Origin: Guptibacillus hwajinpoensis
GTDB lineage: Bacteria > Bacillota > Bacilli > Bacillales > Guptibacillaceae
Length of the DNA stretch: 64,000 nt
Assembly (NCBI RefSeq): GCF_020171785.1
Contig: NZ_JAIVAE010000003.1
Coordinates: forward strand, 186,001 to 250,000
Direction of reading: 5' to 3'
Shown: positions 7,944 to 32,264 of the stretch, piece by piece
Position numbering within the stretch: the first letter of the stretch is position 1
Layout: the number at the start of each line of letters is the position of its first letter
Notes under the pieces: model-generated
What the model was told of the DNA's origin: nothing
The model's input: the letters and a program-made list of their open reading frames with translations, nothing else
Database searches by the model: none
Position numbers and translations under genes: made by a program

Positions 7944-7975
7944 AAAAAGCGAGGAGAACCCTCGCTTTTTTTACG
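7944..7975. terminator. Bidirectional terminator between convergent genes
   Basis: AAAAGCGAGG and CCTCGCTTTT (7946-7970) form a perfect stem with runs of T on the plus side and A on the other, so it can end the reductase gene and, read the other way, the large minus-strand catabolic operon ending at 7971. Confidence 0.9.
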
Positions 7976-8969
7976 CTTTCACACTAGATTTTGATAAAAA
8001 TAGCTTTTTCGGATTTTCTTCAAATAAAATAGCTATCGTTTCTTCCGATATACCCGCCGTCTTCAATTTAGGAATTATCTCTTCAAAAAGATACACCGGC
8101 TGCCAGTTTGCCATGATTTTTTCGACTTGTTCCGGTAGAACAGGGGGACGTCCCATCCAGTAGTTAACGGTATCATGTGAAAGCATAATTTGTTTTTCAT
8201 ATCCGCTATTCAGTAATCCAATTAACGTAATGAGACGCTCTTTATCGTAAGGCGCGCCGACGAGTCCCTGTATCCCAAAACGATCGAACCCGATGTTCAC
8301 TCCCCATTCTAATGTTTTTAAATGGTATGCGGCATCTGTATTGCCACACATATGACCGATGATAATGGACTGTGGATTTACGCCATCTTCCACAAGCAGC
8401 TTTGCTTGGTCAGGACCCATTGTCCCTTCCTGAGTGTGGGTTAATATTGAAATACCGGTTTTTTTATGAACTCGAGCAGCCGCTTTAAAAAACATCTTCT
8501 CATAATCCGTTATCTGATCTTTACTGGACGCTAACTTGATAATACCTGGTTTAATTCCAGTCGTTCCAATGCCGTCTGTTATTTCTTTTATAAACATTTC
8601 GTAAATATCTTCTTCCGCTGTACCAAGACCTTGCCTAAATTTGAAATAAGGCGTTGCTCCTTCTCCTTCATAGTAGTAACCTGTCGCACAAATAATTTGA
8701 AGACCAGTCTCTGTTGATATTTTCTGAAGAAGCTCTGGATTTCGCCCACATTCATTTGGTGTTGGATCTACAACGGTTTTCACACCATGTGCCATAACAT
8801 TTTCAGCCACTGAAATCCCAACTCGAAGCGCCTCCTGAAAATCAAAAGCACCAAGTGAAATATCCCCACTAAATCCAGGATAACCAAAAGCAAAATGTTC
8901 GTGAACTAGTGTTTTTCCCAGCTGATCAATCGCGATTGGTCCAGTAACCGTTTCGACTGTTTCCCCCAC
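7971..8969 (-). CDS. Phosphotriesterase-like metal-dependent hydrolase, probable lactonase
   Basis: The 332-residue amidohydrolase-superfamily enzyme has the binuclear metal set of the phosphotriesterase/PLL lactonase family: H23 and H25 in LVHEHF, K145 in the IIKLASS strand (carboxylated Lys bridge), H178 in LTHTQ, H206 in GHMCG and D266 in SHDTV. TVTGPIAIDQLGKTLVHEH is the typical start. Members mostly hydrolyse lactones, sometimes organophosphates as a side reaction. It is the last gene of the catabolic cluster; its GTG start lies one base after the stop of the CoA ligase gene, so it is probably translated by coupling. A lactonase beside a CoA ligase suggests it opens a lactone to a hydroxy acid before CoA activation. 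Confidence 0.85.
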   Translation of the reverse strand: MGETVETVTGPIAIDQLGKTLVHEHFAFGYPGFSGDISLGAFDFQEALRVGISVAENVMAHGVKTVVDPTPNECGRNPELLQKISTETGLQIICATGYYYEGEGATPYFKFRQGLGTAEEDIYEMFIKEITDGIGTTGIKPGIIKLASSKDQITDYEKMFFKAAARVHKKTGISILTHTQEGTMGPDQAKLLVEDGVNPQSIIIGHMCGNTDAAYHLKTLEWGVNIGFDRFGIQGLVGAPYDKERLITLIGLLNSGYEKQIMLSHDTVNYWMGRPPVLPEQVEKIMANWQPVYLFEEIIPKLKTAGISEETIAILFEENPKKLFLSKSSVKA

Positions 8970-8970
8970 C

Positions 8971-10638
8971 TTACTTCACTCCCTCTGCTTTTTGACGTTC
9001 GTTATCCTGTAGCTTTCTCCATAAAATCTTACCACTACTCGTTGTTGGAAAAGCGTCCATAAACTCAATCATTCTTGGGTATTTATAAGCAGCCATCTGC
9101 TCTTTAGACCATTCGATAATCTCTTCTTCTGTCACTTTTCCTTTATCATCTTCATTCAAAATGACGAAAGCTTTCACTGTTTCGCCGCGCCTTGGATCCG
9201 GTACACCAACGACACAAGCTTGTTGAACTGCTGGATGCTTATATAAAATTGATTCTACTTCTGTTGGCCAAACTTTAAAGCCTGAGGCATTGACCATGCG
9301 TTTCACACGATCAATCATAAAGAAGTATCCCTCTTCATCATAGCGACCGATATCTCCTGTTCGGAAAAAAGACTTTCCATCAAGTTCAATGAACGAACTG
9401 CGGTTTTCATCGTCACGATTGTAATAGCCATCAAACACCTGTGGACCGTTCACAATGATTTCGCCAGGCTCACCTGGACCGAGCTCCTTCATTGTATTTG
9501 GATCGATGACACGTGCATCTACATCGAACGACGGTACACCAAGACACTGAAGTTTAGGAAAATCTGGTGGGTTGAAATGCGTATGAGAAATCGTTTCAGA
9601 TAACCCGTATCCTTCAATAAATCGTAATCCAGTTAAGTTGTATAATTTCTCTCCAACCGCCGCTGGTAAAGGCGCGCCTCCCCCAGCTAGTATTTTTAAT
9701 GATGAAATGGAGTAGTTTGGTAGATTTGGATTCGAAAGAAAATCGATTAGCATCGTACTAATATTCACCCAATTAGCAACTTCGTAGTGTTCAATGTATT
9801 TCGCAGCCAAATTGCGATCCCAACGCGTCATAATAACCATTGGTGCCCCGCTATAAATCGGTGCATGCATACTATGAAGCATTCCGGTTACGTGAAACAA
9901 TGGAAGCGTTACAAGGTGCATGCCATCCGCGGTAATATTCATCCACTGAGATGCGCCTACCGCATTCGCTTGTAAGGTGCGATTCGGATGGATACACCCT
10001 TTTGGTAAACCTGTTGTACCAGAAGTATAGGGCATAACCGCAACGTCATCGATCGTACGTACATATTCTCCAGGTACATTCGAATGATGAATCGCATCTT
10101 CCCACGTATAGTGGTTCGGTTTATCTACTCTTTTTGCCTCTAACGCCACTTCCGCAGGCATATCACTTTCATTACCAGCATAGTGAGAATAGGCTGCCGT
10201 AATCACATTAGTAAGAGTTGTTGTGTTTACTAAAGGCTCTACTTTCTCATATAACTCCTGACCCACAATAGCAGTTTTAATTTCGCAATCTTTAATATAA
10301 AAAGATAGCTCTTCTGCTGTTAACATAGGATTAATTGGGACAACGACGGCGTTAGCTCTTAAAATTGCATAGTAGCTAATTATGAACTGTGCTGAATTTT
10401 GCATAAAAAGAAGAACATTTTCTCCTTCTTTTACCTGCAACTGTTCAAGAAAGGCTGCAGTCTGATCGACTTCATGAAGTAACTCTTTATACGTCATCTT
10501 TGCTCCATAATAAAGAATCGCTTCTTTATTAGGATAACGTTTAGCAGATACGGTGAGGTTATCATAAATGGTTGTTTCAGGAATGGTTAGTGAATAGGGT
10601 ACTCGTTTTGGCCAGAATTGAAAATGATTTGTTTGCAT
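8971..10638 (-). CDS. AMP-forming acyl-CoA ligase (paralogue 1)
   Basis: The 555-residue enzyme belongs to the ANL superfamily, which activates a carboxylic acid with ATP and then CoA. Motif A5/P-loop YTSGTTGLPKGC is near residue 204, EGYGLSE (A5) about 341, FRTGDIG (A7) about 425, and the C-terminal SGKILWRKL with the catalytic Lys near 540. A flexible N-terminus (FWPKRVPYSLTIPETTIYDNL) is shared with the ligase at 30636. It sits between the solute-binding lipoprotein gene and the lactonase-like gene, so its substrate is probably the acid imported by the ABC transporter. Chain length or class of the acid cannot be read from sequence. Start ATG 10638 follows a GAAAGGGG site. Confidence 0.93.
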   Translation of the reverse strand: MQTNHFQFWPKRVPYSLTIPETTIYDNLTVSAKRYPNKEAILYYGAKMTYKELLHEVDQTAAFLEQLQVKEGENVLLFMQNSAQFIISYYAILRANAVVVPINPMLTAEELSFYIKDCEIKTAIVGQELYEKVEPLVNTTTLTNVITAAYSHYAGNESDMPAEVALEAKRVDKPNHYTWEDAIHHSNVPGEYVRTIDDVAVMPYTSGTTGLPKGCIHPNRTLQANAVGASQWMNITADGMHLVTLPLFHVTGMLHSMHAPIYSGAPMVIMTRWDRNLAAKYIEHYEVANWVNISTMLIDFLSNPNLPNYSISSLKILAGGGAPLPAAVGEKLYNLTGLRFIEGYGLSETISHTHFNPPDFPKLQCLGVPSFDVDARVIDPNTMKELGPGEPGEIIVNGPQVFDGYYNRDDENRSSFIELDGKSFFRTGDIGRYDEEGYFFMIDRVKRMVNASGFKVWPTEVESILYKHPAVQQACVVGVPDPRRGETVKAFVILNEDDKGKVTEEEIIEWSKEQMAAYKYPRMIEFMDAFPTTSSGKILWRKLQDNERQKAEGVK

Positions 10639-10664: not shown

Positions 10665-11900
10665 TTAATTTTCCACCTTCACAACTTTTCCATCTTCAAC
10701 TGCTCCAATAGCAGGTTTCCAGTCAAATGCACCACCATTATAAATACCTGTTAAGTGCCAAACCATCTTTTCATCAGGTAGTGATTGGATAGCGGCATCC
10801 ATACTCTCCATAATCTTCGTTGGATCTTCCACCGAACCTGATTCAGACATGGCATTGACAATGACATGCATCGCTTGATAGTTAAATGCACCTTCAGCAG
10901 TTGGAATTCGATCAAAACGTTCTTTGTATTGGCTTATAAACTCTTCTGCACCTGGCGCATCGCTATCAATAATTGGTAGTGCTCCAATTGTTCCCTCTAA
11001 CTGATCAAGTCCACCTAGTACCGGCTCAATTTCCTCAATTTTTGCTTGGTCCATCAGCATAAATCCACCTTCAAAGCCTAATTCTCTAGCTTGTTTAATA
11101 ACGAGGGCTGTTGGCTGTGATGGTCCCCCTACAAAAAGCACGTCAGGATTGTTGCTTAATGCTTTTGTGACAATTGAGAAAAAGTCAGTATCTTTACTAA
11201 AATCAATGGACCCTTCAAAAACGACTTCCCCACCATTCTCTTCCCAAACTGGTTTTAGTGCTTCTGTCCAGTCTTTTCCGTACTGAGATGAGGTTGGTAG
11301 CATTGCAATTTTCTTACCATACCGTTCCATTTGATAGTTTGTAAAAGCTTCAGGATATGCGCTGTACGCAGGGGGAATTCCTAAAGTAAGTGAATTATCC
11401 TGTTCCATAATTTTGGGTTCACTTGTATAGGCTGCGATTAAAAATTCTTCTTGTTCATTAAATACTTGGGTTGCGAAAACACCACCGCTATGTGGAACAA
11501 AAACAATCGGCGTATCATTTTCTTGAACAAGCCTTCTTGCGTTCGTTCCTGTTTCATTAGGCAAATACTGATCATCAAGCGTTACGAGGTTAACCCCGTA
11601 TTTTTCGCCATCCACTTCAAAGCCTTCCTTGTTAATTTCATCTACAGCCATCTCTAAACCACTCAACGTATTCTCTCCATAGTAAGCTGCTGGTCCACTT
11701 AAAGGGCCACTAAATCCAATATTTACAGTATTTTCGAATGTCGTATCTGCACTTGTATCCTTGCTCGTATCTTTCGGTTCGCTTGTATTTGAAGCCCCTT
11801 CATTGCTAGAGTTACTAACAGAATCTGCCGCACATCCCGCCACTACGACCATGCCGATCAACATCACCATGTAAACAAAAAGCTTTATCCCGATTCTCAT
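10665..11900 (-). CDS. livJ: ABC importer substrate-binding lipoprotein, LivJ/Peripla_BP_6 type
   Basis: The 411-residue protein is the extracellular ligand-binding part of a branched-chain-amino-acid-type (HAAT) ABC importer. It begins MRIGIKLFVYMVMLIGMVVVAGC, a lipoprotein signal peptide with lipobox VAGC, then an acidic Ser/Thr linker, then a type I periplasmic-binding fold (NIGFSGPLSGPAAYYGENTLSG, GGVFATQVF, AMLPTSSQYGKDW). The longer open frame upstream is rejected: ATG 11900 has GGGGGA nine bases before it and only this start gives the signal peptide. HAAT binding proteins also bind aromatic acids, amides and other organic acids; the catabolic context favours an organic acid here. Confidence 0.9.
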   Translation of the reverse strand: MRIGIKLFVYMVMLIGMVVVAGCAADSVSNSSNEGASNTSEPKDTSKDTSADTTFENTVNIGFSGPLSGPAAYYGENTLSGLEMAVDEINKEGFEVDGEKYGVNLVTLDDQYLPNETGTNARRLVQENDTPIVFVPHSGGVFATQVFNEQEEFLIAAYTSEPKIMEQDNSLTLGIPPAYSAYPEAFTNYQMERYGKKIAMLPTSSQYGKDWTEALKPVWEENGGEVVFEGSIDFSKDTDFFSIVTKALSNNPDVLFVGGPSQPTALVIKQARELGFEGGFMLMDQAKIEEIEPVLGGLDQLEGTIGALPIIDSDAPGAEEFISQYKERFDRIPTAEGAFNYQAMHVIVNAMSESGSVEDPTKIMESMDAAIQSLPDEKMVWHLTGIYNGGAFDWKPAIGAVEDGKVVKVEN

Positions 11901-11931
11901 TGTTTTCCCCCTATTCAAATCGATTCCGTTT

Positions 11932-12639
11932 TTATGCCCCAATATAAGCTTTTCGAATTTGATCATTAGACAAAAGTTCCTCTTTACTTCCTTGAAGAAC
12001 AATCTTGCCACTTTCAATCACATAGCCACGGTTAGAAATTTGTAGTGCAGCATTGGCGTTTTGCTCAGCTAGAAGAATTGTTGTTCCCTGCTCATTGATA
12101 TCCTCAATAATATGAAACATTTGCTCTACAATGAGGGGGGCAAGTCCTAATGAAGGTTCATCTAGTAAAAGAACTTTCGGTTTGGCCATTAATGCTCGTC
12201 CAATCGCTAACATCTGCTGTTGACCACCACTTAAAGAACCTGCTGCCTCATGCCGCTTATCATATAAAATAGGAAAAAGGGAATACACCTCCTTTAAGCT
12301 CTGTTCCACTTCCTTACGATGTTTCCGATGAACAAAACTGCCCATTTTCAAATTTTCATAAACAGACATTTGTGGAAATAACTTTCTACCTTCAGGACAT
12401 TGCACGATCCCTTCTTTCACTAAAGTGTGAGGCGATTTTCCAGTTAACTTACGATCCATAAACATCACATCACCAGAAGCTGGTTTCATTAAACCACTGA
12501 TCGTACGAAAGATTGTACTTTTTCCAGCTCCATTTGCACCAAGTAACACCACTGTTTCACCTTTTTTTACTTCGAGTGAAATATGATGAAGTACGGAAGA
12601 AGCGCCATAATTCACATTAATATTGTTTAACTGGAGCAT
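11932..12639 (-). CDS. livF: ABC importer ATP-binding protein, LivF type
   Basis: This 235-residue cytoplasmic ATPase drives the HAAT importer with LivG. Walker A is GANGAGKST (about 36-44), the ABC signature is LSGGQQQML, Walker B LLLDEPSLGLAP. The start at ATG 12639 has GGAGGTGAAGCGC upstream; the longer open frame would add 28 residues unlike the family. It overlaps the end of livG by 23 bases, so it is translationally coupled. Length is that of LivF. Confidence 0.93.
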   Translation of the reverse strand: MLQLNNINVNYGASSVLHHISLEVKKGETVVLLGANGAGKSTIFRTISGLMKPASGDVMFMDRKLTGKSPHTLVKEGIVQCPEGRKLFPQMSVYENLKMGSFVHRKHRKEVEQSLKEVYSLFPILYDKRHEAAGSLSGGQQQMLAIGRALMAKPKVLLLDEPSLGLAPLIVEQMFHIIEDINEQGTTILLAEQNANAALQISNRGYVIESGKIVLQGSKEELLSNDQIRKAYIGA

Positions 12640-13396
12640 GCGCTTCACCTCCGAGATAGGCTTGAATAACCGCTTCATTTTGACGAATTTCATCAGGTCG
12701 CCCTTCTGCAATTTTCTTCCCATGATTTAAGACAACGATTTGATCAGCAAGGCTCATGATCATTGGCATCTTATGTTCAATTAAACAGACAGTAATCCCG
12801 TGATCTGCCATTTTTCTCATTAAATACGCTAGCCCATCCGTCTCGTCAGGATTAACTCCAGCGGCCGGTTCATCAAGAAGAACCAGTTCTGGATCGGTTG
12901 CTAATGCAAGAGCAAAGGCAAGTCTCTTCTTCTCTTCCTGCGTAATAAGTGAGACAGGATGTTCAACAACATGCATCATTTCAACAAATTCCAGTGCGTC
13001 GAGTGCTGTTTGATAAGACTTTTTTTCTTCCTCTTTTTCTCTTTTCGTTCGAAAAATCGCATCCCATATCCCTGATTTTGTGCGCAATCTATGTCCGATT
13101 AGAACATTATCTAGAACGGTCGATTGCTCAAACAAGTTAGTCGTTTGAAACGTTCTTCCGATTCCTAGACGTGCAATTTGCTGTGGGGGCATTTTTGTAA
13201 TATCACGATCTTTAAAAAGAATTTTCCCTGAAGAAAGTGGGTGGATTCCACTAATTAGATTAAAAAAGGTAGATTTCCCGGCACCATTTGGACCGATAAT
13301 GGCCGTGATCGTTCCTTTCTCAACCGATACACTCACATCTTCAACCGCTGCTAATCCCCCGAAACGTTTTGTAATCCCCTGTGTAGAAAAGAACAT
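12617..13396 (-). CDS. livG: ABC importer ATP-binding protein, LivG type
   Basis: The 259-residue cytoplasmic ATPase starts MFFSTQGITKRFGGLAAVED. Walker A is GPNGAGKST (about 34-42), Walker B LVLLDEPAAGVNP and the H-loop CLIEHKMP. The signature motif is unusual: instead of LSYGQQR the sequence reads LITQEEKKRLAFALA. In the assembled importer the signature of one subunit acts on the ATP bound by the other, so one composite site may be degenerate. Its start codon overlaps the stop of livM by one base. Confidence 0.92.
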   Translation of the reverse strand: MFFSTQGITKRFGGLAAVEDVSVSVEKGTITAIIGPNGAGKSTFFNLISGIHPLSSGKILFKDRDITKMPPQQIARLGIGRTFQTTNLFEQSTVLDNVLIGHRLRTKSGIWDAIFRTKREKEEEKKSYQTALDALEFVEMMHVVEHPVSLITQEEKKRLAFALALATDPELVLLDEPAAGVNPDETDGLAYLMRKMADHGITVCLIEHKMPMIMSLADQIVVLNHGKKIAEGRPDEIRQNEAVIQAYLGGEAHAPVKQY

Positions 13397-14403
13397 TATC
13401 CAGCCTCACCTACTTTCCTTTTCACTTCATGTTCTTCATTCGCAATCTTTACTCTTTGCTGTTTCTTTCTTTGCACATAGCCGTTTATACTTCCAGTGAT
13501 TCCACGCGGGTAGTATAGAACTAATAGAACTACAACCGGACCAAAAATAAGCATCCGATATTCTTCAAGAAACTGTAATGATTGAGTAAGTGAAATAACA
13601 ATAAGTGTTCCGACAAGAGGACCTGCAAGCGTTCCAATGCCCCCCACTAGAAGATACATCAGCATTTCAAATGTTACGGTAATCGCTGATATTTGCGGAC
13701 CGATAAAACGGATAAATGAAGCATATAACGCACCTGAAAGACCAGCAAATAAAGCAGATAAGGTAAAAGCTAACAGTTGGTTTTTCATAATGGAGATCCC
13801 AATTGTTTTGGCCAGTTCTTCACTGTTTCTTATCGCAATAAACGTTCGTCCTAGTAAAGAATGAACAATGCGGTAACAAAGAAAAACTGTAAGGATTAGA
13901 AAGAACAAAGCAAGGTAATATTGAGAGGTTAATGTATCAAACGTAATGGGCCCTATATTGCTTGGTGCTGGTATCCCGATTAATCCACGAACTCCCCCCG
14001 TTAAGCTATCCCACTTGTCTATTAAAAGATAGACAATGACACCTACACACATGGTGTAAATAGCAAAAAAATGAGATTTTGTTCGAAGAGCAATCACTCC
14101 AACTAGAGCCCCGGCAATAGAAGTGATAAGAACTGCCAGAAGGAGAGATAGCCAATAAGACATGCCTGCTTTGGTTGTTAATAGACCAAGTCCATATGCT
14201 CCAATTGCAAAAAAACCAGCATGTGCGAGAGACAGATACCCTACGTACCCTGAAATAATATTAAATCCGTAAACCGCGATCGACCAAATAAACACAAGCG
14301 TAAGTAATTGGAGAACATACATATTTGGAAAAACGAGAGGAAATAAAACAGCAGCGACGGCAATGATACCGATTAGCACTCGCTTCGATAAGACATTCAG
14401 CAT
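13396..14403 (-). CDS. livM: ABC importer permease, LivM type
   Basis: The 335-residue polytopic membrane protein has about nine or ten hydrophobic helices. GYVGYLSLAHAGFFAIGAYGLGLL (about 52-75) and GVRGLIGIPAP are typical of LivM, as is RTFIAIRNSEELAKTIGISIMKNQLLAF, the cytoplasmic loop that couples to the ATPase. It forms the membrane channel with LivH. It ends in a basic tail. One-base overlaps join it to livH before and livG after, so the order livH-livM-livG-livF-livJ is one transcript. Confidence 0.93.
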   Translation of the reverse strand: MLNVLSKRVLIGIIAVAAVLFPLVFPNMYVLQLLTLVFIWSIAVYGFNIISGYVGYLSLAHAGFFAIGAYGLGLLTTKAGMSYWLSLLLAVLITSIAGALVGVIALRTKSHFFAIYTMCVGVIVYLLIDKWDSLTGGVRGLIGIPAPSNIGPITFDTLTSQYYLALFFLILTVFLCYRIVHSLLGRTFIAIRNSEELAKTIGISIMKNQLLAFTLSALFAGLSGALYASFIRFIGPQISAITVTFEMLMYLLVGGIGTLAGPLVGTLIVISLTQSLQFLEEYRMLIFGPVVVLLVLYYPRGITGSINGYVQRKKQQRVKIANEEHEVKRKVGEAG

Positions 14404-15266
14404 TACTGAACCCCCTTCGTAAATAACCCAGTTGGCTTGGCTGTTAGAATGACTACGAGTAGAAGAAACGCAATAACGTCTTTATAATCAGATGATATGT
14501 ACGTTGCTCCAATGCTTTCGGTAAGGCCAAGCAAATAACCACCAAGAATTGCTCCGGGGATACTTCCCATTCCACCGATAATGATGATAACGAAAGCTTT
14601 CATAATGACCAGGTTTCCCATAGTCGGAAAGACAAGATTAATAGGGGATGCTAATGATGCGGCTGCAGCTGCTAATCCACCGGCAATCGCAAAGGTAAGC
14701 CAAGCCACCTGATTTGCATTAATACCTACCAGGAACGCACCCTCTCGATTTTGAGCCATTGCGACAATCGCTGCTCCGATCATTGTTTTCGTTAAGAAAA
14801 AATGTAATGCAAGCATAAGGATGACAGCAGCAACTATAATTAGAAGACGTTGTAACGTTACAGTTAGACCGAATAAATTAACGACCGACCCATAAGGAGT
14901 GTCCATTCTGTGGTATTCCGTACCCCACATAAATTGACCAAATGCTTCTAGAAAAAGGAGAATCCCGATGGCAGCAACCATCATTCTCATACCATCTGCG
15001 CCTTCTAACTTTTTAAATATTAGCTGCTGTGTGACAACTCCAAGAAGAGCAACAACAGCCACTGAAGCAATAATGGCGATCCAATAATGAAAACCAAAAC
15101 CAACCATCATCATTAAAGTAATATAAGCACCAACCATATAAAAAGCACCGTGTGCAAAATTGGGAACATGTAAAATGCCAAAAACAAGTGTTAGACCAAG
15201 GGCGACAAGTGTGTAAACGCTTCCAATTGTAAGTCCGTTAAAAATCTGCTGGATAAGGAGCTCCAT
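14403..15266 (-). CDS. livH: ABC importer permease, LivH type
   Basis: The 287-residue membrane protein begins MELLIQQIFNGLTIGSVYTLVALGLTLVFG and has HVPNFAHGAFYMVGAY, both typical of LivH. About eight helices are visible and the coupling loop is MIGAAIVAMAQNREGAFLVGINANQVAWL. ATG 15266 is preferred over ATG 15269 because AGGAGG is six bases from it. It is the first importer gene; the gap before it holds a strong stem-loop that could separate or reduce transcription from the upstream beta-oxidation genes. Confidence 0.92.
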   Translation of the reverse strand: MELLIQQIFNGLTIGSVYTLVALGLTLVFGILHVPNFAHGAFYMVGAYITLMMMVGFGFHYWIAIIASVAVVALLGVVTQQLIFKKLEGADGMRMMVAAIGILLFLEAFGQFMWGTEYHRMDTPYGSVVNLFGLTVTLQRLLIIVAAVILMLALHFFLTKTMIGAAIVAMAQNREGAFLVGINANQVAWLTFAIAGGLAAAAASLASPINLVFPTMGNLVIMKAFVIIIIGGMGSIPGAILGGYLLGLTESIGATYISSDYKDVIAFLLLVVILTAKPTGLFTKGVQ

Positions 15267-15344
15267 CATCTTCCTCCTTTTATTAAATTAGATCCAGACT
15301 AGGGAGACGGCGGACTTATGAAGGGGATTCAAGATGTAGGAATA

Positions 15345-15381: not shown

Positions 15382-16173
15382 TTATTTACCTTTAAATTGT
15401 GGCGCGCGTTTTTCTTTAAATGCATTTGCTCCTTCTTTGTGGTCGTCTGTCGTTACCATTAGCGCTTGTGTAATGCGCTCTTGTTCAAGTACTTCAGACA
15501 AAGAAGAGGTTAGCGAAGCATCTGCAATTTTCTTAATAAACCCATAGGCTTTACCCGGACCTTTAGAAAGCTTCTCAGCATATGCCATCGCTTCTTCTTC
15601 AAGACTAGCTATCGGATAAGTTCGGTTTACAATATTCAACTCTTTCGCTTCTTTTGCTGAAATGGGTTGAGCTGAGAAGAATAGCTCTTTCGCCTTATAA
15701 GGACCTATTAAGCGAGGAAGAAACGAAAGGCCCCCGCCATCTGAAATTAATCCAACCTGAGAAAAGCTTAATACAAAACTACTATCTTCAGCTGCCAAAA
15801 TAATGTCACTCGCAAGTGCTAGATTAAAGCCTGCACCAGCAGCAAAACCATGAATCACTGAAATGATTGGTTTCTCAAGATCTCTCATAGCAAGGACCAG
15901 CTCATTTAACTTACCTATGTGTTCATAAACTTCAGTTGAGGTTGTATCCCCCATTGTTTTAACATCCCCACCTGCGCTAAAGGAACGTCCTGCACCTGAG
16001 AGCATCACTACTCGTATCTCATCGTTCTCCTTAGCATCTTGAATAGCTTTCGTCAGCCCTAAGATCATCTCAGGGCTAAACGCATTTAGTGCCTCAGGGC
16101 GATTAAGCGTAAGATGAAGCACAGCACCATGTACATTTACTTTTAGATGTTCCGTTTTTACAGTCGTTTCCAT
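15382..16173 (-). CDS. Enoyl-CoA hydratase/isomerase (crotonase fold), paralogue 1
   Basis: The 263-residue protein is a crotonase. It has HLTLNRPEALNAFSPEM, the oxyanion-hole segment SGAGRSFSAGGDVKTM (about 59-74) and the second one HGFAAGAGFNLALASDIILA (about 108-127). In true hydratases two Glu residues catalyse water addition; here the second position region reads SQVGLISDGGGLSFLP, where Glu is replaced by Asp, as in several isomerase-type relatives, so hydratase activity is not certain. It ends KEKRAPQFKGK, like PaaG/EchA proteins. It lies between an SDR and the importer genes in the catabolic operon. Confidence 0.9.
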   Translation of the reverse strand: METTVKTEHLKVNVHGAVLHLTLNRPEALNAFSPEMILGLTKAIQDAKENDEIRVVMLSGAGRSFSAGGDVKTMGDTTSTEVYEHIGKLNELVLAMRDLEKPIISVIHGFAAGAGFNLALASDIILAAEDSSFVLSFSQVGLISDGGGLSFLPRLIGPYKAKELFFSAQPISAKEAKELNIVNRTYPIASLEEEAMAYAEKLSKGPGKAYGFIKKIADASLTSSLSEVLEQERITQALMVTTDDHKEGANAFKEKRAPQFKGK

Positions 16174-25027: not shown

Positions 25028-25780
25028 TTAAAACGTTAATCCGCCTCCGTCAACAAGAAGACTTGTTCCTGTAACGTAAGAAGCTTCATCCGAGACTAGG
25101 AATAACACGGCGTTTGCAATTTCCTCTGGTTGTCCTACCCTTTTAAGCGCATTGGCTTTTGAAATAATGGGCCATTTACGTTCATCTTCTCTCCATGGTG
25201 TCACAATGTTTGTATCAATTACTCCAGGACAAACGGCATTCACTCGAATATTCTTGCTTCCGTATTCGAGTGCAGCATTTTTTGTTAATGTAATAACCCC
25301 ACCTTTGGATGCGTTATAAGGGGCCATATATTTTTTCCCTTTAAAACCCAATAGACTTGAAGTGTTAACGATGGCGCCACCATTTCTCTTTTCCATCAAT
25401 GGAATACTAAATTTCATTCCAAGGAAAACACCCTTCAAATTTATCGACACTACACGGTCCCATTCCTCAACAGGAACCTCCGCTAATTTCACTTCTTCGT
25501 TACTAACACCTGCATTATTAAAAAGAATGTCGAGGCCACCATAGTGCTGTTCACACTCTTCTACAAGCGCTTTCATTTCTCCTTCATTTGCCGTGTCCGT
25601 TTTTACAAATATAGCATCTCCACCCATTTTACGAACTTGTTCGACAGTTTCTTCACCAGATTCTGCGTGAATATCAGAGACGACTACTTTTGCCCCTTCA
25701 TCAGCAAAGCGAAGTGCGGTTGCTCGACCGATTCCTCCACCGCCTCCAGTTACAATTGCAACTTTATCCTGCAGCCTCAT
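25028..25780 (-). CDS. Short-chain dehydrogenase/reductase, paralogue 2
   Basis: The 250-residue SDR begins MRLQDKVAIVTGGGGGIGRATALRFADEGAKVVVSD; Asp after the second strand favours NAD. It has NNAGVSNEE, the Ser in NTSSLLGFKGKKYMAPYNASKGG with catalytic YxxxK, and VCPGVIDTNIV. The start ATG 25780 has AAGGAGG upstream; the longer open frame would overlap the thiolase gene and add 20 basic residues. It lies between thiolase and CoA ligase genes. Likely substrate is a hydroxyacyl-CoA or hydroxy acid of the pathway. Confidence 0.9.
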   Translation of the reverse strand: MRLQDKVAIVTGGGGGIGRATALRFADEGAKVVVSDIHAESGEETVEQVRKMGGDAIFVKTDTANEGEMKALVEECEQHYGGLDILFNNAGVSNEEVKLAEVPVEEWDRVVSINLKGVFLGMKFSIPLMEKRNGGAIVNTSSLLGFKGKKYMAPYNASKGGVITLTKNAALEYGSKNIRVNAVCPGVIDTNIVTPWREDERKWPIISKANALKRVGQPEEIANAVLFLVSDEASYVTGTSLLVDGGGLTF

Positions 25781-25791
25781 TTCATCCCTCC

Positions 25792-26961
25792 TTATTCTCG
25801 CTCTAAAACGGTTGCTATTCCTTGACCTCCACCAATACAAGCAGTAATCAGTGCATATCTTCCTTCTCGACGATCAAGCTCATAAATCGCTTTTGTTGCT
25901 AGAATTGCTCCAGTTGCACCTAATGGATGACCATGTGCAATCGCTCCACCGTTAACGTTCACAACATTTTCATTCATTTTCAATTCACGATCACAAGCAA
26001 GTACCTGGGCGGCAAAAGCTTCATTAATCTCAATCAGATCCATTTCCTCGAGAGATAATCCGGTTTGTTTCAATAATTTTTGCGTAGCTGGAACAGGACC
26101 GATTCCCATTATATTCGGATCGACTCCGCTAACCGCGTATCCTCTCACTACCGCAAGTGGTTTTAATCCAAGACTTTCAGCTTTTTCGCGGGACATCACA
26201 ATAAGAGCAGACGCCGCATCATTTAAGCCAGAGCTAGACCCAGCTGTAACGCTTCCGCCTTTTTTAAATACGGCAGGTAATAAAGCAAGACGTTCAATCG
26301 TTGTTTCAGGCCTTGGATGTTCATCCTTTGTTACTTTAATCGGGTCGCCTTTACGCACAGGTACATGAACAGGAGCAATTTGGGAGTCAAAATAACCTTC
26401 AGCCATCGCTTTGCCCATTCGCTCCTGACTCCTTTGTGCAAAAGCATCCTGTTCTTCACGCGTAATCTCATATTTTTCTGCTAAGTTCTCTGCAGTAATC
26501 CCCATTGGAGGATCGCCAATTTCATCAGGGGAAAGACGTGACTTCATGAATCGGGGTGGCATCGTACTGTATGGTTTAGAAGGCTTCTCCATCAAATAAG
26601 GCGCCTGGCTCATGCTTTCCGCTCCCCCAACGACATAAACATCCCCATCTCCAGATTTAATGGCTTGTGCAGCAAGATTTATCGCATTCAATCCTGATCC
26701 ACACTGACGGTCAATTGTTAGTCCAGGAATTGAAAGAGGAAGACCGGCCTGCAAAGCTGTTAGCCTTGCAATATTCCCTCCACCACCAATAACATTTCCG
26801 AAGATCACATCATCGATTGATTCAACATCTAATTTGATACGTGCTACTGCTTCTTTAAGTGCGATTGCGCCAAGCTCATGTGCTGAAATCGTTGCAAACG
26901 CTCCACCCTGTCTTCCAATTGGTGTTCGAACACTTGAGACAATTACTGGATCACGATTCAT
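25792..26961 (-). CDS. Acetyl-CoA acyltransferase (thiolase)
   Basis: The 389-residue thiolase cleaves 3-ketoacyl-CoA with CoA to give acetyl-CoA (or propionyl-CoA) and a shortened acyl-CoA. The nucleophilic Cys is in IDRQCGSGLNAINLA (about 83-97), the His in GGAIAHGHPLGATGA (about 343-357) and the second Cys in LITACIGGGQGIA. Length is standard. The start at ATG 26961 (MNRDPVIVSSVRTPIGR) is preferred because a GGAGG site lies upstream inside the longer frame. It is the terminal beta-oxidation step for the cluster. Confidence 0.95.
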   Translation of the reverse strand: MNRDPVIVSSVRTPIGRQGGAFATISAHELGAIALKEAVARIKLDVESIDDVIFGNVIGGGGNIARLTALQAGLPLSIPGLTIDRQCGSGLNAINLAAQAIKSGDGDVYVVGGAESMSQAPYLMEKPSKPYSTMPPRFMKSRLSPDEIGDPPMGITAENLAEKYEITREEQDAFAQRSQERMGKAMAEGYFDSQIAPVHVPVRKGDPIKVTKDEHPRPETTIERLALLPAVFKKGGSVTAGSSSGLNDAASALIVMSREKAESLGLKPLAVVRGYAVSGVDPNIMGIGPVPATQKLLKQTGLSLEEMDLIEINEAFAAQVLACDRELKMNENVVNVNGGAIAHGHPLGATGAILATKAIYELDRREGRYALITACIGGGQGIATVLERE

Positions 26962-26981
26962 ATCATGATTCTCCTCCTTCA

Positions 26982-27755
26982 TTACATTGCATGCTGTCCA
27001 CCATCGACAATTAGAATATCACCAGTCACATAATTCGAAGCATTTGATGCCAAAAACAGTGCTGCCCCTTTGAGATCATCGTCTGTTCCAAAGCGATTCA
27101 GTGGCGTTGTTTCTAGCATCCTCTCACCACCCGCTTCAATTAACCCTTTAGACATTTTTGTAGGGAAAAAGCCAGGTGCAATCGCATTAACATTTATATT
27201 GTAGCTCCCCCACTTTACAGCAAGGTCTTTCGTAAAGGTAATCACTGCACCTTTACTCGTGTTATAACCGATTGCATCCATATAGCGAGGGTCAGCGCCA
27301 CCAAGACCTGCAACAGAAGCAATGTTAATAATTTTCCCACTTTTTTGTTTGATCATTTCTTTCCCAACAGCCTGAGCAAATAAGAACGTACCGGTGACAT
27401 TAACCTCCATTACTTTGTGCCAGGCTTGAAGAGGCATTTCCACTACGGGTGCCCCCCATGAAGCGCCGCTGTTGTTAACGAGAATATCGATACGACCAAA
27501 TTCTTTCATTGTTTCATCAACGACATGTTGAACTTGTTCTTGGTTTGTTACATCACATTCAAAAGCTAATGATTTGACTCCAGCTGCTTTTAGCTCCTCA
27601 CTAACAGCTTCACAAGCTTCTCGTTTTCTTGAACAAATTACAACGTTTGCTCCTGCCTCTGCAAATCCTTCAGCAATTTGCTTGCCTAACCCTCTTCCTC
27701 CTCCTGTTACGATTGCTGTCTTTCCTGTTAAGTCAAATAATTGCATCACATTCAT
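26982..27755 (-). CDS. Short-chain dehydrogenase/reductase, paralogue 3 (gluconate 5-dehydrogenase-like)
   Basis: The 257-residue SDR has GGGRGLGKQIAEGFAEAGANVVICSRKREAC: the basic residues after strand 2 favour NADP(H). NNSGASWGAPV, NIASVAGLGG and YNTSKGAVITFTKDLA carry the Ser-Tyr-Lys triad, and VTGDILIVDGGQ is the usual end. Gene order dehydrogenase-SDR-thiolase suggests it acts on the product of the ACAD11-like enzyme, for example as a 3-hydroxyacyl-CoA dehydrogenase. Confidence 0.9.
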   Translation of the reverse strand: MNVMQLFDLTGKTAIVTGGGRGLGKQIAEGFAEAGANVVICSRKREACEAVSEELKAAGVKSLAFECDVTNQEQVQHVVDETMKEFGRIDILVNNSGASWGAPVVEMPLQAWHKVMEVNVTGTFLFAQAVGKEMIKQKSGKIINIASVAGLGGADPRYMDAIGYNTSKGAVITFTKDLAVKWGSYNINVNAIAPGFFPTKMSKGLIEAGGERMLETTPLNRFGTDDDLKGAALFLASNASNYVTGDILIVDGGQHAM

Positions 27756-27770
27756 ATCTTATCCCCCTCA

Positions 27771-28979
27771 TTAACGGTATTTCTTCAATTCCTGTCTTGC
27801 GACTGCACTGCGATGTACTTCGTCAGGACCGTCAGCTAATCGAAGCGTTCTCGCGTTAGCCCAGTGAGCTGCTAATGTATAATCATCACTTACCCCAGCG
27901 CCTCCAAATGCTTGAATGGCTCGGTCAATCACGCGAAGAGCCATATTCGGTGCAACTACTTTAATCATGGCAATTTCTGCTTTAGCTTCTTTATTTCCAA
28001 CGGTATCCATCATATAAGCTGCTTTTAACGTAAGCAGTCTCGCCTGTTCAATTTCGATGCGAGAATCGGCAATCCATTCTCGAACGACGCCTTGCTCAGA
28101 GATTTTCTTTCCAAAAGCTTCGCGACTTTGTACGCGCTTACATAAATCTTCAAGCGCTCGTTCTGCCGTTCCGATTAACCTCATGCAATGGTGAATTCGC
28201 CCTGGACCAAGTCTCCCTTGAGCTATCGCAAAACCTTTTCCTTCTTCCCAAAGCATATTTGAAGCTGGCACCCTGACATCTTTGTACTCGATTTCTGCAT
28301 GTCCGTGTGGGGCATGATCATAACCAAAAACGGGTAGCACTCGCTTTATCGTGACGCCTTTTGTATCAAGTGGTACGAGAATCATGGACTGCTGTTCATG
28401 TTTAGCTGCGTCTGGATCATTTTTACCCATAACAATGGCAATCTTACATCTCGGATCTCCTGCACCAGAAGACCACCATTTCGTTCCGTTAATAACGTAT
28501 TCATCGCCTTCGCGTTCGATACGAGCTTGAATATTAGTAGCATCAGAAGAAGCCACATCCGGTTCTGTCATTGAGAAACAAGAGCGTATTTCTCCAGAGA
28601 GGAGGGGTTCTAGCCACTGTTTCTTTTGTTCGTCTGTCCCGTAACGGACTAATACTTCCATATTTCCAGTATCAGGGGCGGCGCAGTTAAATACTTCAGG
28701 TCCAATCATGGATCGTCCCATCACTTCGCAAAGAGGAGCATACTCAGCATTTGTTAGTCCAGCGCCATATTCACTTTCTGGAAGAAAAAGATTCCACAAT
28801 CCCGCCTCTTTCGCTTTCTTTTTCAATTCTTCCATGATCGGAGGAATACTTGACCACCTGCTCTCCTGTTCTGAAAGCTGTTCTTCATACACTTTTTCAT
28901 TTGGGTATACATATTCATCCATAAATGTTGTTAATTTTTCAAGATACGATTGGCTACGCTCGGAATAATCGAAATTCAT
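27771..28979 (-). CDS. Acyl-CoA dehydrogenase, ACAD10/ACAD11 C-terminal type
   Basis: The 402-residue FAD enzyme is close to the dehydrogenase half of ACAD10/ACAD11: [24 protein letters not shown]-type start region, [74 protein letters not shown] and [10 protein letters not shown]. In animals this half is fused to a kinase and works with it on 4-phosphoryl-acyl-CoA; here the kinase is a separate gene at 19471. It heads an operon with SDR, thiolase, SDR and CoA ligase, and its promoter carries a TetR-type palindrome just downstream of the start point. Confidence 0.95.
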
Positions 28980-29008: not shown

Positions 29009-29026
29009 AACTAACCGGTTGGTATG
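29009..29026. promoter_or_regulatory. Probable TetR operator 2
   Basis: AACTAACCGGTTGGTATG contains the AACCGGTT core with flanks like sites 1 and 3. It lies a few bases downstream of the predicted transcription start of the ACAD11-like operon, where a bound repressor would block elongation or initiation. Confidence 0.75.
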
Positions 29027-29082: not shown

Positions 29083-30624
29083 TTAAAAACCAGTTGGCCA
29101 ATTTGCTAGCTTTCTTTCACTAATTGAACCTTTTTTATAACATGCCAGTTCTAGCGTTTTAGCAAGAAACTGCCTCGTTTCTCCTGGATCAATCACATCA
29201 TCAATTAAATGTTTTGCAGCTGCTTTATAAGGTGAACTATCAAAACTCCATTTTTCTAAGAGCTTTTCTCGGTCCTCTTTTGGATTTTCAGATAACATCA
29301 ATTCTCTTCCATAAACGACATTGATCCCAACTTCTGGCCCTGTAAAATTGATTTCAGCAGATGGCCAGGCAACGACAAAGTCGGCGCCCATCGTTGGACC
29401 ACACATATTTCCATAAGCTGCTCCCACGCTTTTCCTAATGACCACTGATACTTTAGGAACTGTCGATTGTGCAAGAGCTTGATTCCACATCATAATTTTA
29501 GTAGGAATTTTCCCTTTCTCTGCTTCAGAGCTAACTCGAAAACCGGGGATGTCGTGAAGAAAGATTAAGGGAATATGAAACGAATCGCACATACAAATAA
29601 AATCTGTCGCCTTTTCGCATTCTTGAACACCTGCCGCACCAGCATATTTCATCGGTTGATTTGCGATAATTCCGACAGATCGCCCATCGATTCTTGTTAA
29701 AACAGTTAGAAGTGCAGGGCCGAATTCTGGTTTTATCTCAAAAAAGTTTCCATCGTCAACGATCGTAGCGATCACTTTTTTCATATTGTAAGCACGATTT
29801 CGTTTTTCAGGAACAACAGTTTGCAACTGATCTACCCTTCTTTCTACAGAATCATCATTTAGAAAAAGAGGCGGTTCTTCTTCGCTATGTGATGGAAGAA
29901 AACTTAAGAACCTCTTCACTTGAGCAATACAGTCTTCTTCGGTCTCAGCTGATTGATCAATTTGTCCCGTAAAGTCATGATGAACTCTAACGCCGCCTAG
30001 TTGTTCTTCTCCTATTTTTTCACCAGTAGCCATTTCAAGCATTCGAGGTCCAGCAACTCCCATACACGTTCCATTTAGTTGGGTAACAAAATCAGAAGAT
30101 ACCGCAAGCCACGTCGGTCCACCAAAGCTATCACCAAGAATGGCCGTTACCATTGGAACTTCACGATGATGCGTTAACATTTCTTGAGGAAAAAGCTTAT
30201 CACTAATGCCATCAGAACCCATTCCATCTGGCATTCGAAGCCCTCCACCTTCACTTAAATTAACTAAAGGCAACCCTCTTTTTAATGCATAAGCATGGGC
30301 AGCTTTCGTTTTTCGAATATGAACGGCACCCTCTGTACCCGCAAACACCGTTTTATCACCTGCCTGAACAACGACTGGACGACCATCTACACGTCCTACC
30401 CCACAAATAATCCCATCTCCAGAACTCTTTTCTTCTTGTCCAGGAATTTCAGAGGTGTTTAATTTCCCAAACTCAAGGAATGATCCTTCGTCAATGAGGA
30501 GCGCAATTCGTTCACGTGCCGTCTTTTTTCCTATCGCATGAAGCGCATCGATTTTGTGTTGGCCGCCCATTCGTTCCGCACGTAGTCTACGATTCTTCAA
30601 ATCTTCTACATATGATTCCATCAT
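29083..30624 (-). CDS. Acyl-CoA carboxylase carboxyltransferase (beta) subunit
   Basis: The 513-residue protein belongs to the propionyl-/methylcrotonyl-CoA carboxylase beta family, which moves CO2 from carboxybiotin to an acyl-CoA. It has two crotonase-like domains: N-terminal (AERMGGQHKIDALHAIGK, GRPVVVQAGDKTVFAG, LVNLSEGGGLRMPDG) and C-terminal (GPALLTVLTRIDGRSVGIIANQP, FLHDIPGFRVSSEAEKG, RKSVGAAYGNMCGPTMGADFVVAWPSAEI). No biotin carboxylase or biotin carrier gene is in the window. ATG 30624 is chosen because GGGAG lies upstream; the GTG at 30639 overlaps the previous stop. It is the second gene after the CoA ligase at 30636. Confidence 0.92.
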   Translation of the reverse strand: MMESYVEDLKNRRLRAERMGGQHKIDALHAIGKKTARERIALLIDEGSFLEFGKLNTSEIPGQEEKSSGDGIICGVGRVDGRPVVVQAGDKTVFAGTEGAVHIRKTKAAHAYALKRGLPLVNLSEGGGLRMPDGMGSDGISDKLFPQEMLTHHREVPMVTAILGDSFGGPTWLAVSSDFVTQLNGTCMGVAGPRMLEMATGEKIGEEQLGGVRVHHDFTGQIDQSAETEEDCIAQVKRFLSFLPSHSEEEPPLFLNDDSVERRVDQLQTVVPEKRNRAYNMKKVIATIVDDGNFFEIKPEFGPALLTVLTRIDGRSVGIIANQPMKYAGAAGVQECEKATDFICMCDSFHIPLIFLHDIPGFRVSSEAEKGKIPTKIMMWNQALAQSTVPKVSVVIRKSVGAAYGNMCGPTMGADFVVAWPSAEINFTGPEVGINVVYGRELMLSENPKEDREKLLEKWSFDSSPYKAAAKHLIDDVIDPGETRQFLAKTLELACYKKGSISERKLANWPTGF

Positions 30625-30635
30625 TCCACTCCCTT

Positions 30636-32264
30636 TCACTTCTTTAATAACCTTCTTAATACTTTACCTGAAGATGTAGCAGGTAGACTTTCACGAATTT
30701 CAATTATTTTAGGTGCTTTATAAGCAGCCATATGGTCTCTAGACCACCCCATTAACTCTTCAATTGTTGTGTTAGAATGATTAGGATGTAAGACGACGAC
30801 TGCCTTAATGATTTCTCCTTTTTGTTCATCGGGTATACCGATAACCGCTGTTTGCTTAATAGCTGGATGTTCATTCATTAATGCTTCAACGTCCTCTGGA
30901 AACACGCTATAACCTGAGCTTTTAACCATCTCTTTCAAACGCCCTCGAAAATATAAGTAGCCTTCATCATCAAGATAACCGATGTCCCCAGTGTATACCC
31001 ACCCATTCTTTAGAGAAGCAGCTGTCTCATCAGGACGATTGTAATATCCCTTAAAAACTCCTGGGCTCTTAATTACGATTTCTCCCTCTTTAAGTGGACC
31101 AACTTCTTCGCTATCCGTATTTATTATTTTCAGGTTTGTCTTATGAATAGGAATGCCGCAGCTTCCAAACTTCACATGTTCAGTTGGCATAAACGTGTCA
31201 CATGTATGCGTCTCACTTAAGCCATAGGAAGCTTCATATAGTAGACAGCCATTCGTTGCTTTCTTCCATTGATCTGCGAGATTTCTAGTTACTTGCACGC
31301 CAAAGCTTGTCGCTAAATTAAGTCGAAGAGATGTTAAATCTCGTTCGTTAAGATCAGGCATTTGCAAAATAGCCACGTTCATAGGGGCGATACTGTACCA
31401 CATTGTAATGCGATGATCCTCAATGGCTGATACGACCGTTTCTGCATCAAACCGACTCAGCAGCACAGTTTCATTACCGCTATAGACAGGTAAGTTAACT
31501 CCCATTACCATTCCAGCAATATGACATAATGGGGCGATCGCTAACAATTTGTCTTCCTGTTTAATTCGATTGCATGTCACCGTAGCAGCAGTTTTAAATA
31601 AAGCATTTTCATAAGTAAGCATTGCTGCTTTAGGTCTCCCCGTTGTTCCTGATGTAAACACCATTAAGCACACATCATCTAATCTCACAGGGACAGGTTG
31701 AAATGAAACTTCTTCTGTATCATAAAGAGACTCTAGAGTGGTAAATCTTGAAGATTTGATAGGGGATTTTATTTCAGATGGCACACGATTGGATTGCTCA
31801 GCGGAAAGAATCGACGTATAAGAAACCGTTACGATAAAGGAAAGAGCTTCCTCAATTTTTGCTAACATTGGTAAAAGTTCTATTCCACATATGATTCCTT
31901 TCATGTCTGCTTCTTGAATTAAGTAAGTAAGCTCAGAGGTTTTATACATGGGATTTAACGGAACGACAACTGCTCCAATCTTTTGAATGGCATAATGAGC
32001 AATAAGATATTGTGGACAATTTTGCATAAACAAAGCGATATGATCGCCTTGTTTGACACCAATCCGCTCTAAATAGTTTGCTAGTTGATTTGAGTGTTCA
32101 TTCCATTTTTTCCATGTTAATTGATAACCATAATAATGAATGGCAATTGCGTTTGGTTTTCGCTCCGCTTGAATGGAGAGATATTCATGGAGGGGTCTTT
32201 CTCCATATTGATAAATTAATGTAGAAGGAACTGCTTCTGGCCAAAATGATGTAAGCTTTTCCAC
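30636..32264 (-). CDS. AMP-forming acyl-CoA ligase (paralogue 3)
   Basis: The 542-residue ANL enzyme has P-loop FTSGTTGRPKAAML (about 205-218), YEASYGLSETHTC, VYTGDIGYLDDEGYLYFRGRLKEMVKSSGYSVFPEDVEALM and the C-terminal Lys in SSGKVLRRLLKK. Its N-terminus (FWPEAVPSTLIYQYGERPLHEYL) is like that of paralogue 1, so those two may have come from one ancestor. Start is GTG 32264 with GGGTGG five bases upstream. It is the first gene of a two-gene operon with the carboxyltransferase, so its product may be the acyl-CoA that is carboxylated. Confidence 0.93.
   Translation of the reverse strand: MEKLTSFWPEAVPSTLIYQYGERPLHEYLSIQAERKPNAIAIHYYGYQLTWKKWNEHSNQLANYLERIGVKQGDHIALFMQNCPQYLIAHYAIQKIGAVVVPLNPMYKTSELTYLIQEADMKGIICGIELLPMLAKIEEALSFIVTVSYTSILSAEQSNRVPSEIKSPIKSSRFTTLESLYDTEEVSFQPVPVRLDDVCLMVFTSGTTGRPKAAMLTYENALFKTAATVTCNRIKQEDKLLAIAPLCHIAGMVMGVNLPVYSGNETVLLSRFDAETVVSAIEDHRITMWYSIAPMNVAILQMPDLNERDLTSLRLNLATSFGVQVTRNLADQWKKATNGCLLYEASYGLSETHTCDTFMPTEHVKFGSCGIPIHKTNLKIINTDSEEVGPLKEGEIVIKSPGVFKGYYNRPDETAASLKNGWVYTGDIGYLDDEGYLYFRGRLKEMVKSSGYSVFPEDVEALMNEHPAIKQTAVIGIPDEQKGEIIKAVVVLHPNHSNTTIEELMGWSRDHMAAYKAPKIIEIRESLPATSSGKVLRRLLKK

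Follow-up and report, generated by a model that had tools for sequence, protein, structure and literature searches.

A 24-kb gene cluster of Guptibacillus hwajinpoensis appears to be a TetR-controlled catabolic regulon that channels 4-hydroxy acids into beta-oxidation, with gamma-lactones as at least part of their source, and in which a ComB-family protein would act on a phosphorylated intermediate; we place the probability of this reading at about 70%. In the proposed pathway, a Liv-type importer would take up the acid or lactone, a phosphotriesterase (PTE)-like lactonase would open the lactone ring and a CoA ligase would form the 4-hydroxyacyl-CoA. An APH-fold kinase would then transfer phosphate onto the 4-hydroxyl, an LvaC-type acyl-CoA dehydrogenase (ACAD) would expel it through an internal FAD redox cycle to yield the 2-enoyl-CoA, and a hydratase, a 3-hydroxyacyl-CoA dehydrogenase and a thiolase would carry out the final steps. 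This is a known pathway in a Bacillales version, with a predicted substrate; the new part is the conserved partner of the kinase.

Cluster layout and shared operator

The window, the 64-kb stretch of DNA that was analysed, carries 23 genes between positions 7971 and 32264, all on the minus strand and either overlapping or separated by gaps of at most 112 bp (Table 1). HMM searches bore out the sequence-only reading of one 24-kb minus-strand cluster with CoA ligases, hydratases, dehydrogenases, thiolase, Liv-type importer and PTE-family lactonase. Genes for the ComB-family protein, a thioesterase, a TetR protein and a carboxyltransferase had not figured in that reading; no biotin carboxylase was found among the cluster genes. 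Across 80 loci carrying a homologue of the kinase, a copy of SDR3 (at least 55% identity) is present in 62 and adjoins the LvaC-type ACAD in 55, the thioesterase is present in 31, and the Liv-type importer is patchy (about 20). A P450 gene follows the kinase in Planococcus-type loci, which hints at other substrates.

The palindrome TACTAACCGGTTAGTA lies 15–29 bp upstream of three transcription units; the window holds exactly three copies, against 0.10 expected, and the whole genome four, these three included. It recurs in 77 of the 80 kinase loci, and 110 of 116 sites fall no more than 300 bp upstream of a cluster gene, whereas one shuffle gave 9. A TetR gene accompanies 57 of the 80 loci and, from this context, we presume that its product acts at the palindrome as a repressor. 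The promoter-like match TTGAAT-17-TATACT at 29066–29038, just upstream of the palindrome at 29009–29024, is regarded as a mere consensus match, because promoter and terminator scans yielded no more than shuffled sequences.

Table 1. Genes of the cluster and candidate operator sites, in window coordinates
Feature	Position	Strand	Evidence or remark
Phosphotriesterase-like lactonase (predicted)	7971..8969	-	PF02126; 3f4c 487 bits; DR0930 (3fdk) 407.5 bits
Acyl-CoA ligase (CoAlig1), lactonase pair	8971..10638	-	PRK08314 852 bits, above cut-off
Importer substrate-binding protein	10665..12017	-	PF13458; real start probably within ORF
LivF-type ATPase	11932..12723	-	HMM; real start probably within ORF
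LivG-type ATPase	12617..13396	-	HMM
LivM-type ABC permease	13396..14403	-	HMM
LivH-type ABC permease	14403..15269	-	HMM
Enoyl-CoA hydratase/isomerase (ECH1)	15382..16173	-	HMM
SDR dehydrogenase (SDR1)	16196..16963	-	HMM
FadE-type acyl-CoA dehydrogenase	16978..18726	-	NF058590 above cut-off; longer ORF to 18801
ComB/PF04029-family partner, L-type clade	18707..19462	-	DxLRATS conserved Arg = Leu
APH-fold 4-hydroxyacyl-CoA kinase, LvaA/ACAD10-11 kinase type (predicted)	19471..20544	-	phmmer, residue alignment
4HBT-type acyl-CoA thioesterase	20588..20992	-	PF13279
Enoyl-CoA hydratase (ECH2)	21011..21787	-	HMM
3-hydroxyacyl-CoA dehydrogenase (HBD)	21787..22671	-	HMM
Candidate operator palindrome	22691..22706	.	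19 bp upstream of HBD-ECH2-thioesterase-kinase-ComB unit; 2 mismatches
TetR-family regulator, presumed repressor	22751..23320	-	PF00440 + PF17932
Acyl-CoA ligase (CoAlig2)	23396..25009	-	HMM
SDR dehydrogenase (SDR2)	25028..25840	-	HMM
3-ketoacyl-CoA thiolase	25792..26982	-	TIGR01930 above cut-off
SDR dehydrogenase (SDR3)	26982..27755	-	NF006070 above cut-off
LvaC/ACAD10-11-type acyl-CoA dehydrogenase	27771..28979	-	4hr3 481 bits; ACAD11 8v3u 479 bits
Candidate operator palindrome	29009..29024	.	29 bp upstream of ACAD gene; 2 mismatches
Acyl-CoA carboxyltransferase-like (MmdA-like)	29083..30639	-	TIGR01117 400 bits, under cut-off 999; PF01039
Acyl-CoA ligase (CoAlig3)	30636..32264	-	AMP-ligase families
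Candidate operator palindrome	32280..32295	.	15 bp upstream of CoAlig3; 1 mismatch

Kinase and dehydrogenase

Both proteins match the two halves of animal ACAD10/ACAD11, as the sequence-only reading had proposed. That reading had the coordinates and motifs of the dehydrogenase right, as well as the ORF and quoted motifs of the kinase, but it began the kinase at 20535, an ATG, where the start is a GTG at 20544. In phmmer comparisons, no solved protein whose function is known scored higher with the kinase than ACAD11, at 158 bits; 9o56, an entry known by its database name alone, scored 504 bits, 3dxp 148 and the next 41. With the dehydrogenase, ACAD11 scored 479 bits and the best ACAD outside the LvaC/ACAD10-11 group 164, which rules out an ordinary fatty-acid ACAD.

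Catalytic residues were mapped onto mouse ACAD11 as named in the available text of PMC12440821, where D220 and N225 are the catalytic Asp and Asn of the kinase, R86 and R176 contact CoA, R626, H634 and R637 (HCMR) form the phosphate site of the dehydrogenase, and a catalytic Asp replaces Glu. By count, the kinase equivalents of D220, N225 and R176 are identical residues; that of R86 was found through its description (an Arg beside the alphaC Glu), our own count placing this Arg at 84. All four are retained in 80 of 80 homologues. The equivalents of R626, R631, H634, R637 and D753 are likewise present in the ACAD and identical by count, and the catalytic Asp is retained in 66 of 66 LvaC-type ACADs, themselves selected through the motif RxGPGRxHHxMR. 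The genome encodes a single kinase of this kind (the second match has an E-value of 9e-4 across 71 residues) and one LvaC-type ACAD at E<=1e-100, about 7 kb from it. Among 61 genomes, the kinase is present in 35 and the LvaC-type ACAD in 33, all of which are among the 35.

The APH fold, the database label of aminoglycoside phosphotransferase and a weak ThiK match (27 bits vs. 299 required) would suit an ordinary phosphotransferase for a small molecule such as an aminoglycoside, homoserine, choline or thiamine, present in the cluster by chance. Nevertheless, the ACAD11 kinase family, and no unrelated phosphotransferase, gave the best alignments, the CoA-contact Arg equivalents are retained in all 80 homologues, and the kinase strictly co-occurs with the LvaC-type ACAD and shares its operator; on these grounds we consider that identity highly improbable and have discarded it. 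A 25-hydroxy steroid kinase (9fsg, 9ft5), which according to the entry titles also phosphorylates an alcohol with an APH fold, acts on a steroid and is just 19–20% identical. The data support membership of the kinase in the LvaA/ACAD10-11 family, with 4-phosphorylation predicted from homologues, and also support the homology-based prediction that the ACAD converts 4-phosphoacyl-CoA to enoyl-CoA with loss of phosphate. The two are separate genes, as the sequence-only reading had stated in calling the pair split; this is the ordinary bacterial arrangement, so that the split by itself is neither a special feature nor new.

A probable ComB-family partner of the kinase

The ComB-family (PF04029) protein seems to be a regular companion of the kinase, one that has attracted little attention. 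Its gene directly follows the kinase in 51 of the 80 loci; 27 have no ComB in the flank examined, and 15 of the 80 are truncated by contig ends. Outside the genus, both genes occur in 21 genomes, the kinase only in none, PF04029 only in one, and neither in 25 (p=2e-12). G003 has a sole, Arg-type ComB copy away from the kinase, G011 has none, and that of G017 is a 73-aa fragment. The kinase-linked copies form a single clade, and each of the 53 sequences taken from kinase loci has Leu, Met or Ile where the DxLRATS motif has its conserved Arg. The window protein, which has the PF04029 fold, carries Leu at this position, whereas the Arg is present in all three solved ComB-family members and in 30 of 30 PF04029 copies examined from kinase-free genomes. 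Only this Leu-type clade is tied to the kinase: among 249 Bacillota genomes PF04029 occurs in 138 and the kinase in 5, which rules out the whole Pfam family as its companion beyond Bacillales. Besides the window's own genome, the kinase-bearing members of that set are G228, where ComB adjoins the kinase, and G068, G115 and G154, where it is distant.

A second Arg (GER) is altered in 51 of the 53 linked copies; we dropped it as a mark of the clade since it is kept in the other two and altered in most of 14 further ComB copies compared. The core residues D28, E73, T104-N-G-T and E157-D158 are invariant in 29 aligned proteins, and we do not claim the Arg change as proof of lost catalysis. Unlike the 2-phosphosulfolactate phosphatase ComB (1vr0), the window protein belongs to a separate clade, has Leu for the family Arg and is encoded beside the kinase. 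Apart from it, the cluster genes include none named for coenzyme M or sulfolactate metabolism. In the literature titles and abstract openings covered, we recognised nothing tying ComB/PF04029 to the 4-hydroxyacyl-CoA pathway. Judging from context, the protein would most likely hydrolyse dead-end 4-phospho acids or CoA esters, whether of the wrong isomer or in surplus, and thereby keep CoA and phosphate from being trapped.

A more doubtful view is that the partner is a regulator rather than a working phosphatase, sensing the 4-phospho product and restraining the kinase as the HAD domain of ACAD10 does, with LvaB and histidine phosphatases in the equivalent slot elsewhere. The loss of the conserved Arg in all 53 linked copies is consistent with this, as are the histidine phosphatases, which fill the ComB slot in 18 of 26 plasmid records: 12 of 12 that were read keep RHG and have Ser where the second His of the SHGG motif would stand. 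DUF6285/PF19802, which we take to be the LvaB family, was detected in 0 of 61 genomes and in 2 of 14 control genomes, so an LvaB-like partner beside the kinase is absent. According to the available text, the ACAD10 HAD domain restrains the kinase despite negligible phosphatase activity (PMC11342911), and Pseudomonas citronellolis LA18T has a histidine phosphatase beside its LvaA homologue in an lva cluster where lvaB was not found (PMC6692424), much as ComB stands here. Against a regulator, retention of the remaining ComB core makes activity with a different specificity equally likely, and no physical interaction between kinase and partner is known. Further, the Ser is not exclusive to partners of the kinase: of the 12 histidine phosphatases that carry it, two (L163, L165) lack a kinase within 3 kb.

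We tentatively raise the possibility that 4-hydroxyacyl-CoA kinases of bacteria and animals have phosphatase-fold partners that were acquired on separate occasions and from folds without common origin: a ComB protein in Bacillales, a histidine phosphatase in Pseudomonadota, Actinomycetota and Deinococcota, and the HAD domain of ACAD10 in animals. Each would depart from the conserved residues of its family and police the phospho-intermediate, as a repair enzyme or a product-sensing brake on the kinase.

Probable lactone supply and related systems

The lactonase matches over its full length the solved PTE-like group members 3f4c and DR0930, which we take to be lactonases, and its ring-opening reaction is predicted from these homologues; the 4-hydroxy acids probably come from lactone opening. 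The gene lies 1 bp from CoAlig1 in the window, and the pair recurs at L118, L119, L137, L139 and L142 and in 4 of 8 kinase loci with a lactonase within 10 kb, with no such pair at L138, L140 and L141. Outside the genus, close homologues were found in nine genomes, all of them kinase-bearing (9/9; p=2e-4), out of 21 that are kinase-positive; inside the genus, the lactonase is missing from G003 and G011. The common operator precedes an unlinked lactonase in G020 and a lactonase-containing cluster in G014. The protein family and predicted chemistry, the 1-bp pairing, the 9/9 co-occurrence and these operators favour the 4-hydroxy acid/gamma-lactone pathway of the sequence-only reading; on the other side, the lactonase is a minority trait, with just 8 of the 80 loci having one within 10 kb of the kinase, and an operator of up to 3 mismatches was found near no more than 2 of the 9 lactonases outside the genus.

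PTE-like lactonases open acyl-homoserine lactones too. It is conceivable, if unlikely, that the lactonase has no part in the pathway or acts in quorum quenching, and that the substrates of the cluster are hydroxylated fatty acids or some other hydroxyacyl-CoA (branched, terpenoid or sterol side chains); the restriction of close lactonases outside the genus to kinase-bearing genomes, the operator shared with the lactonase in two of these and the lactonase-CoAlig1 pairing in several genera all argue against it.

Lactone use also features in the qsd operon of Rhodococcus erythropolis, where QsdA belongs to the PTE family. Like our cluster, this operon combines a lactonase (QsdA), an acyl-CoA ligase (QsdC) and a TetR-like regulator (QsdR), and QsdA and QsdC are required for gamma-caprolactone use; the available text names no kinase or LvaC-type ACAD (PMC6476934), whereas the later steps are encoded in the cluster here. 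In the levulinate (lva) operon of P. putida KT2440, the APH-fold kinase and the ACAD are likewise separate proteins and jointly convert 4-hydroxyacyl-CoA to enoyl-CoA, and a CoA ligase and an SDR are encoded alongside them, as here. That operon differs in having LvaB (DUF6285 family) instead of the ComB-family gene, and the window cluster adds the lactonase, the Liv importer and a full beta-oxidation set. Control differs as well, through sigma54-dependent LvaR there (PMC6692424) and a TetR gene with palindrome here. Mammalian ACAD10 and ACAD11 have both catalytic domains and the key residues in common with our proteins, per the available text (PMC12440821, PMC11342911); the domains are fused in animals and encoded by separate genes here, and in place of the HAD domain of ACAD10 the ComB-fold protein is a separate neighbour.

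With this cluster, a pathway whose assignment in mammals is recent reaches the Gram-positive bacteria, where its gene set is complete and regulated. Bacillus-type lactonases have mostly been studied as quorum quenchers, and the regulon offers them a native metabolic role. It also provides a predicted function for a ComB subfamily whose name misleads, and the recurrent phosphatase-fold partner bears on the role of the human ACAD10 HAD domain.

Gene content and a shared operator

HMM matches to 23 consecutive genes bear out the minus-strand catabolic cluster of the sequence-only reading, with its kinase, acyl-CoA dehydrogenase, ligases, hydratases, dehydrogenases, thiolase, importer and lactonase. 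They comprise three CoA ligases, a carboxyltransferase, one LvaC-type (ACAD) and one FadE-type acyl-CoA dehydrogenase, three SDRs, a thiolase, two crotonases, a 3-hydroxyacyl-CoA dehydrogenase (HBD), a 4HBT thioesterase, a TetR regulator, the APH-fold kinase, a ComB-family protein, a five-gene Liv-type importer and a PTE-family lactonase. The kinase is 95-96% identical to those of the closest named genomes, which come from two Pseudalkalibacillus and one Bacillus sp. The carboxyltransferase, behind the first operator, is methylmalonyl-CoA decarboxylase-alpha-like, and no biotin carboxylase was found among the cluster genes. A 151-aa ORF beside the cluster has no match in Pfam or NCBIfam.

Features of the cluster and its surroundings (window positions unless prefixed; G000, the window's own genome; L155, a sequence record)
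Feature	Position	Strand
Cluster	7971-32264	minus
Lactonase	7971-8969	minus
ComB (PF04029)	18707-19462	minus
Kinase	19471-20544	minus
HBD	21787-22671	minus
ACAD	27771-28979	minus
Carboxyltransferase	29083-30639	minus
ORF, 151 aa	32401-32856	plus
Fourth operator copy and following unit	L155:5117-7206 (G000:C3:91116 onward)	

A palindromic operator, TACTAACCGGTTAGTA, is common to the intergenic gaps upstream of three genes: the CoA ligase at 32264, ACAD and HBD. At up to three mismatches these are exactly its three sites in the window; 100 shuffles gave a mean of 0.10 sites and never three. Genome-wide, at up to two mismatches, there are four sites (reversed-pattern control, one per strand), the fourth lying ahead of a probable additional member of the regulon, a unit made up of an ordinary acyl-CoA dehydrogenase with a split pair of MaoC-type hydratases. 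The operator is present in 77 of the 80 kinase-homologue loci. Of its 116 sites there, 110 stand no more than 300 bp upstream of a cluster gene; a single mononucleotide shuffle yielded 9. It also precedes genes that left the cluster: a lone lactonase (genome G020; 20 bp, two mismatches), a lone ComB (G031; 11 bp, two mismatches) and, in G014, the thioesterase gene of a cluster containing the lactonase and its CoA ligase (one mismatch), with about 1 kb lacking annotation between the ligase and ECH1, an enoyl-CoA hydratase/isomerase. The TetR gene presumably encodes the operator-binding protein.

A putative route from lactones to beta-oxidation

Judged from homologues, the cluster would convert a lactone to the 4-hydroxy acid, its CoA ester, the 4-phosphate and a 2-enoyl-CoA entering beta-oxidation (overall probability about 0.72). 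The kinase and ACAD very likely share the chemistry of their homologues. The genome sample comprised 14 members of the genus and 47 others; of these 61, 35 carry the kinase and 33 the ACAD, all 33 being kinase-positive; outside the genus, 19 have both, 2 the kinase alone and 26 neither (p=3e-11). In the divergent loci L116, L117, L143 and L144, an ACAD with RLGPGRITHAMR and YDGPDEVH adjoins a kinase of 46-49% identity, possibly a sister subfamily with other substrates. In seven Planococcus/Planomicrobium loci (L032, L039, L040, L042, L056, L065, L086) the next gene downstream of the kinase encodes a cytochrome P450, assigned by PF00067 in L032 and by sequence likeness in the other six, which perhaps makes or uses the hydroxylated substrate. 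L067, titled Pseudomonas sp. ISL-84, resembles Cytobacillus loci and is probably misnamed.

That a lactone is a natural entry is a reading we favour with some reserve. Outside the genus, 9 of 47 genomes contain close lactonase relatives (E<=1e-90), and every one of the 9 belongs to the 21 that are kinase-positive (one-sided p 2e-4); when distant PTE relatives (E<=1e-20) are counted as well, the total is 15 genomes, four of them without the kinase. Within the genus 12 of 14 have the lactonase (not G003 and G011). Against the link, the limited stretches searched around the 9 lactonases showed an operator (up to three mismatches) for no more than 2 of them, and only 8 of 80 kinase loci hold a lactonase in the fetched flank; in the genus, the gene sits just outside that flank. 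The pairing of lactonase and CoA ligase is seen again in L118, L119, L137, L139 and L142, as well as in 4 of the 8 loci just mentioned. It parallels Rhodococcus QsdA/QsdC, described as required for gamma-caprolactone assimilation (PMC6476934).

Candidate phosphatase-fold partners of the kinase

ComB adjoins the kinase and in all probability belongs to the pathway. In 18 of 26 plasmid records with kinases at E<=1e-60 to that of Pseudoalteromonas, related records not being independent, a histidine phosphatase gene follows on the same strand, no more than 1 kb downstream (Deinococcus 8/14, others 10/12); Deinococcus radiodurans, which fell below the search threshold, is annotated with one. Starting from the phosphatase, 19 of the 29 records that carry it also encode a kinase meeting this cut-off, and a further one, from Caballeronia, a more distant kinase. 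The order is ACAD-SDR-kinase-phosphatase in Pseudoalteromonas, Ideonella and Rhodobacteraceae, with two SDRs in Streptomyces, no intervening SDR in Azospirillum and phosphatase-kinase-SDR-ACAD in Caballeronia. Inspected neighbourhoods in Deinococcus psychrotolerans, Deinococcus aetherius, Rhodococcus, Haladaptatus, Halomarina and Cytobacillus were negative. Two Acinetobacter baumannii "plasmid" records (NZ_CP104448.1, NZ_CP064203.1; ~4 Mb each) look like misfiled chromosomes. All 12 histidine phosphatases read, two of them not near a kinase, keep RHG and carry Ser at what we take to be the site of the second catalytic His.

PMC6692424 describes the same arrangement in P. citronellolis and suggests that phosphate is removed from the intermediate. 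According to PMC11342911, one Asp of DxD is missing from the HAD domain of ACAD10, which shows hardly any phosphatase activity and holds the kinase in check. Thus three unrelated phosphatase folds occur beside the kinase, each deviating from its own family's conserved residues, and such partners may serve repair or regulation. For ComB, hydrolysis of dead-end phospho-compounds has about an even chance; restraint of the kinase, as by the HAD domain, is a more doubtful task. A literature search, largely outside subscription journals, found no paper linking ComB to the pathway. The kinase and ACAD are additional members of known families; what is new here is the gene set leading from lactonase to enoyl-CoA, together with its operator and the ComB clade.
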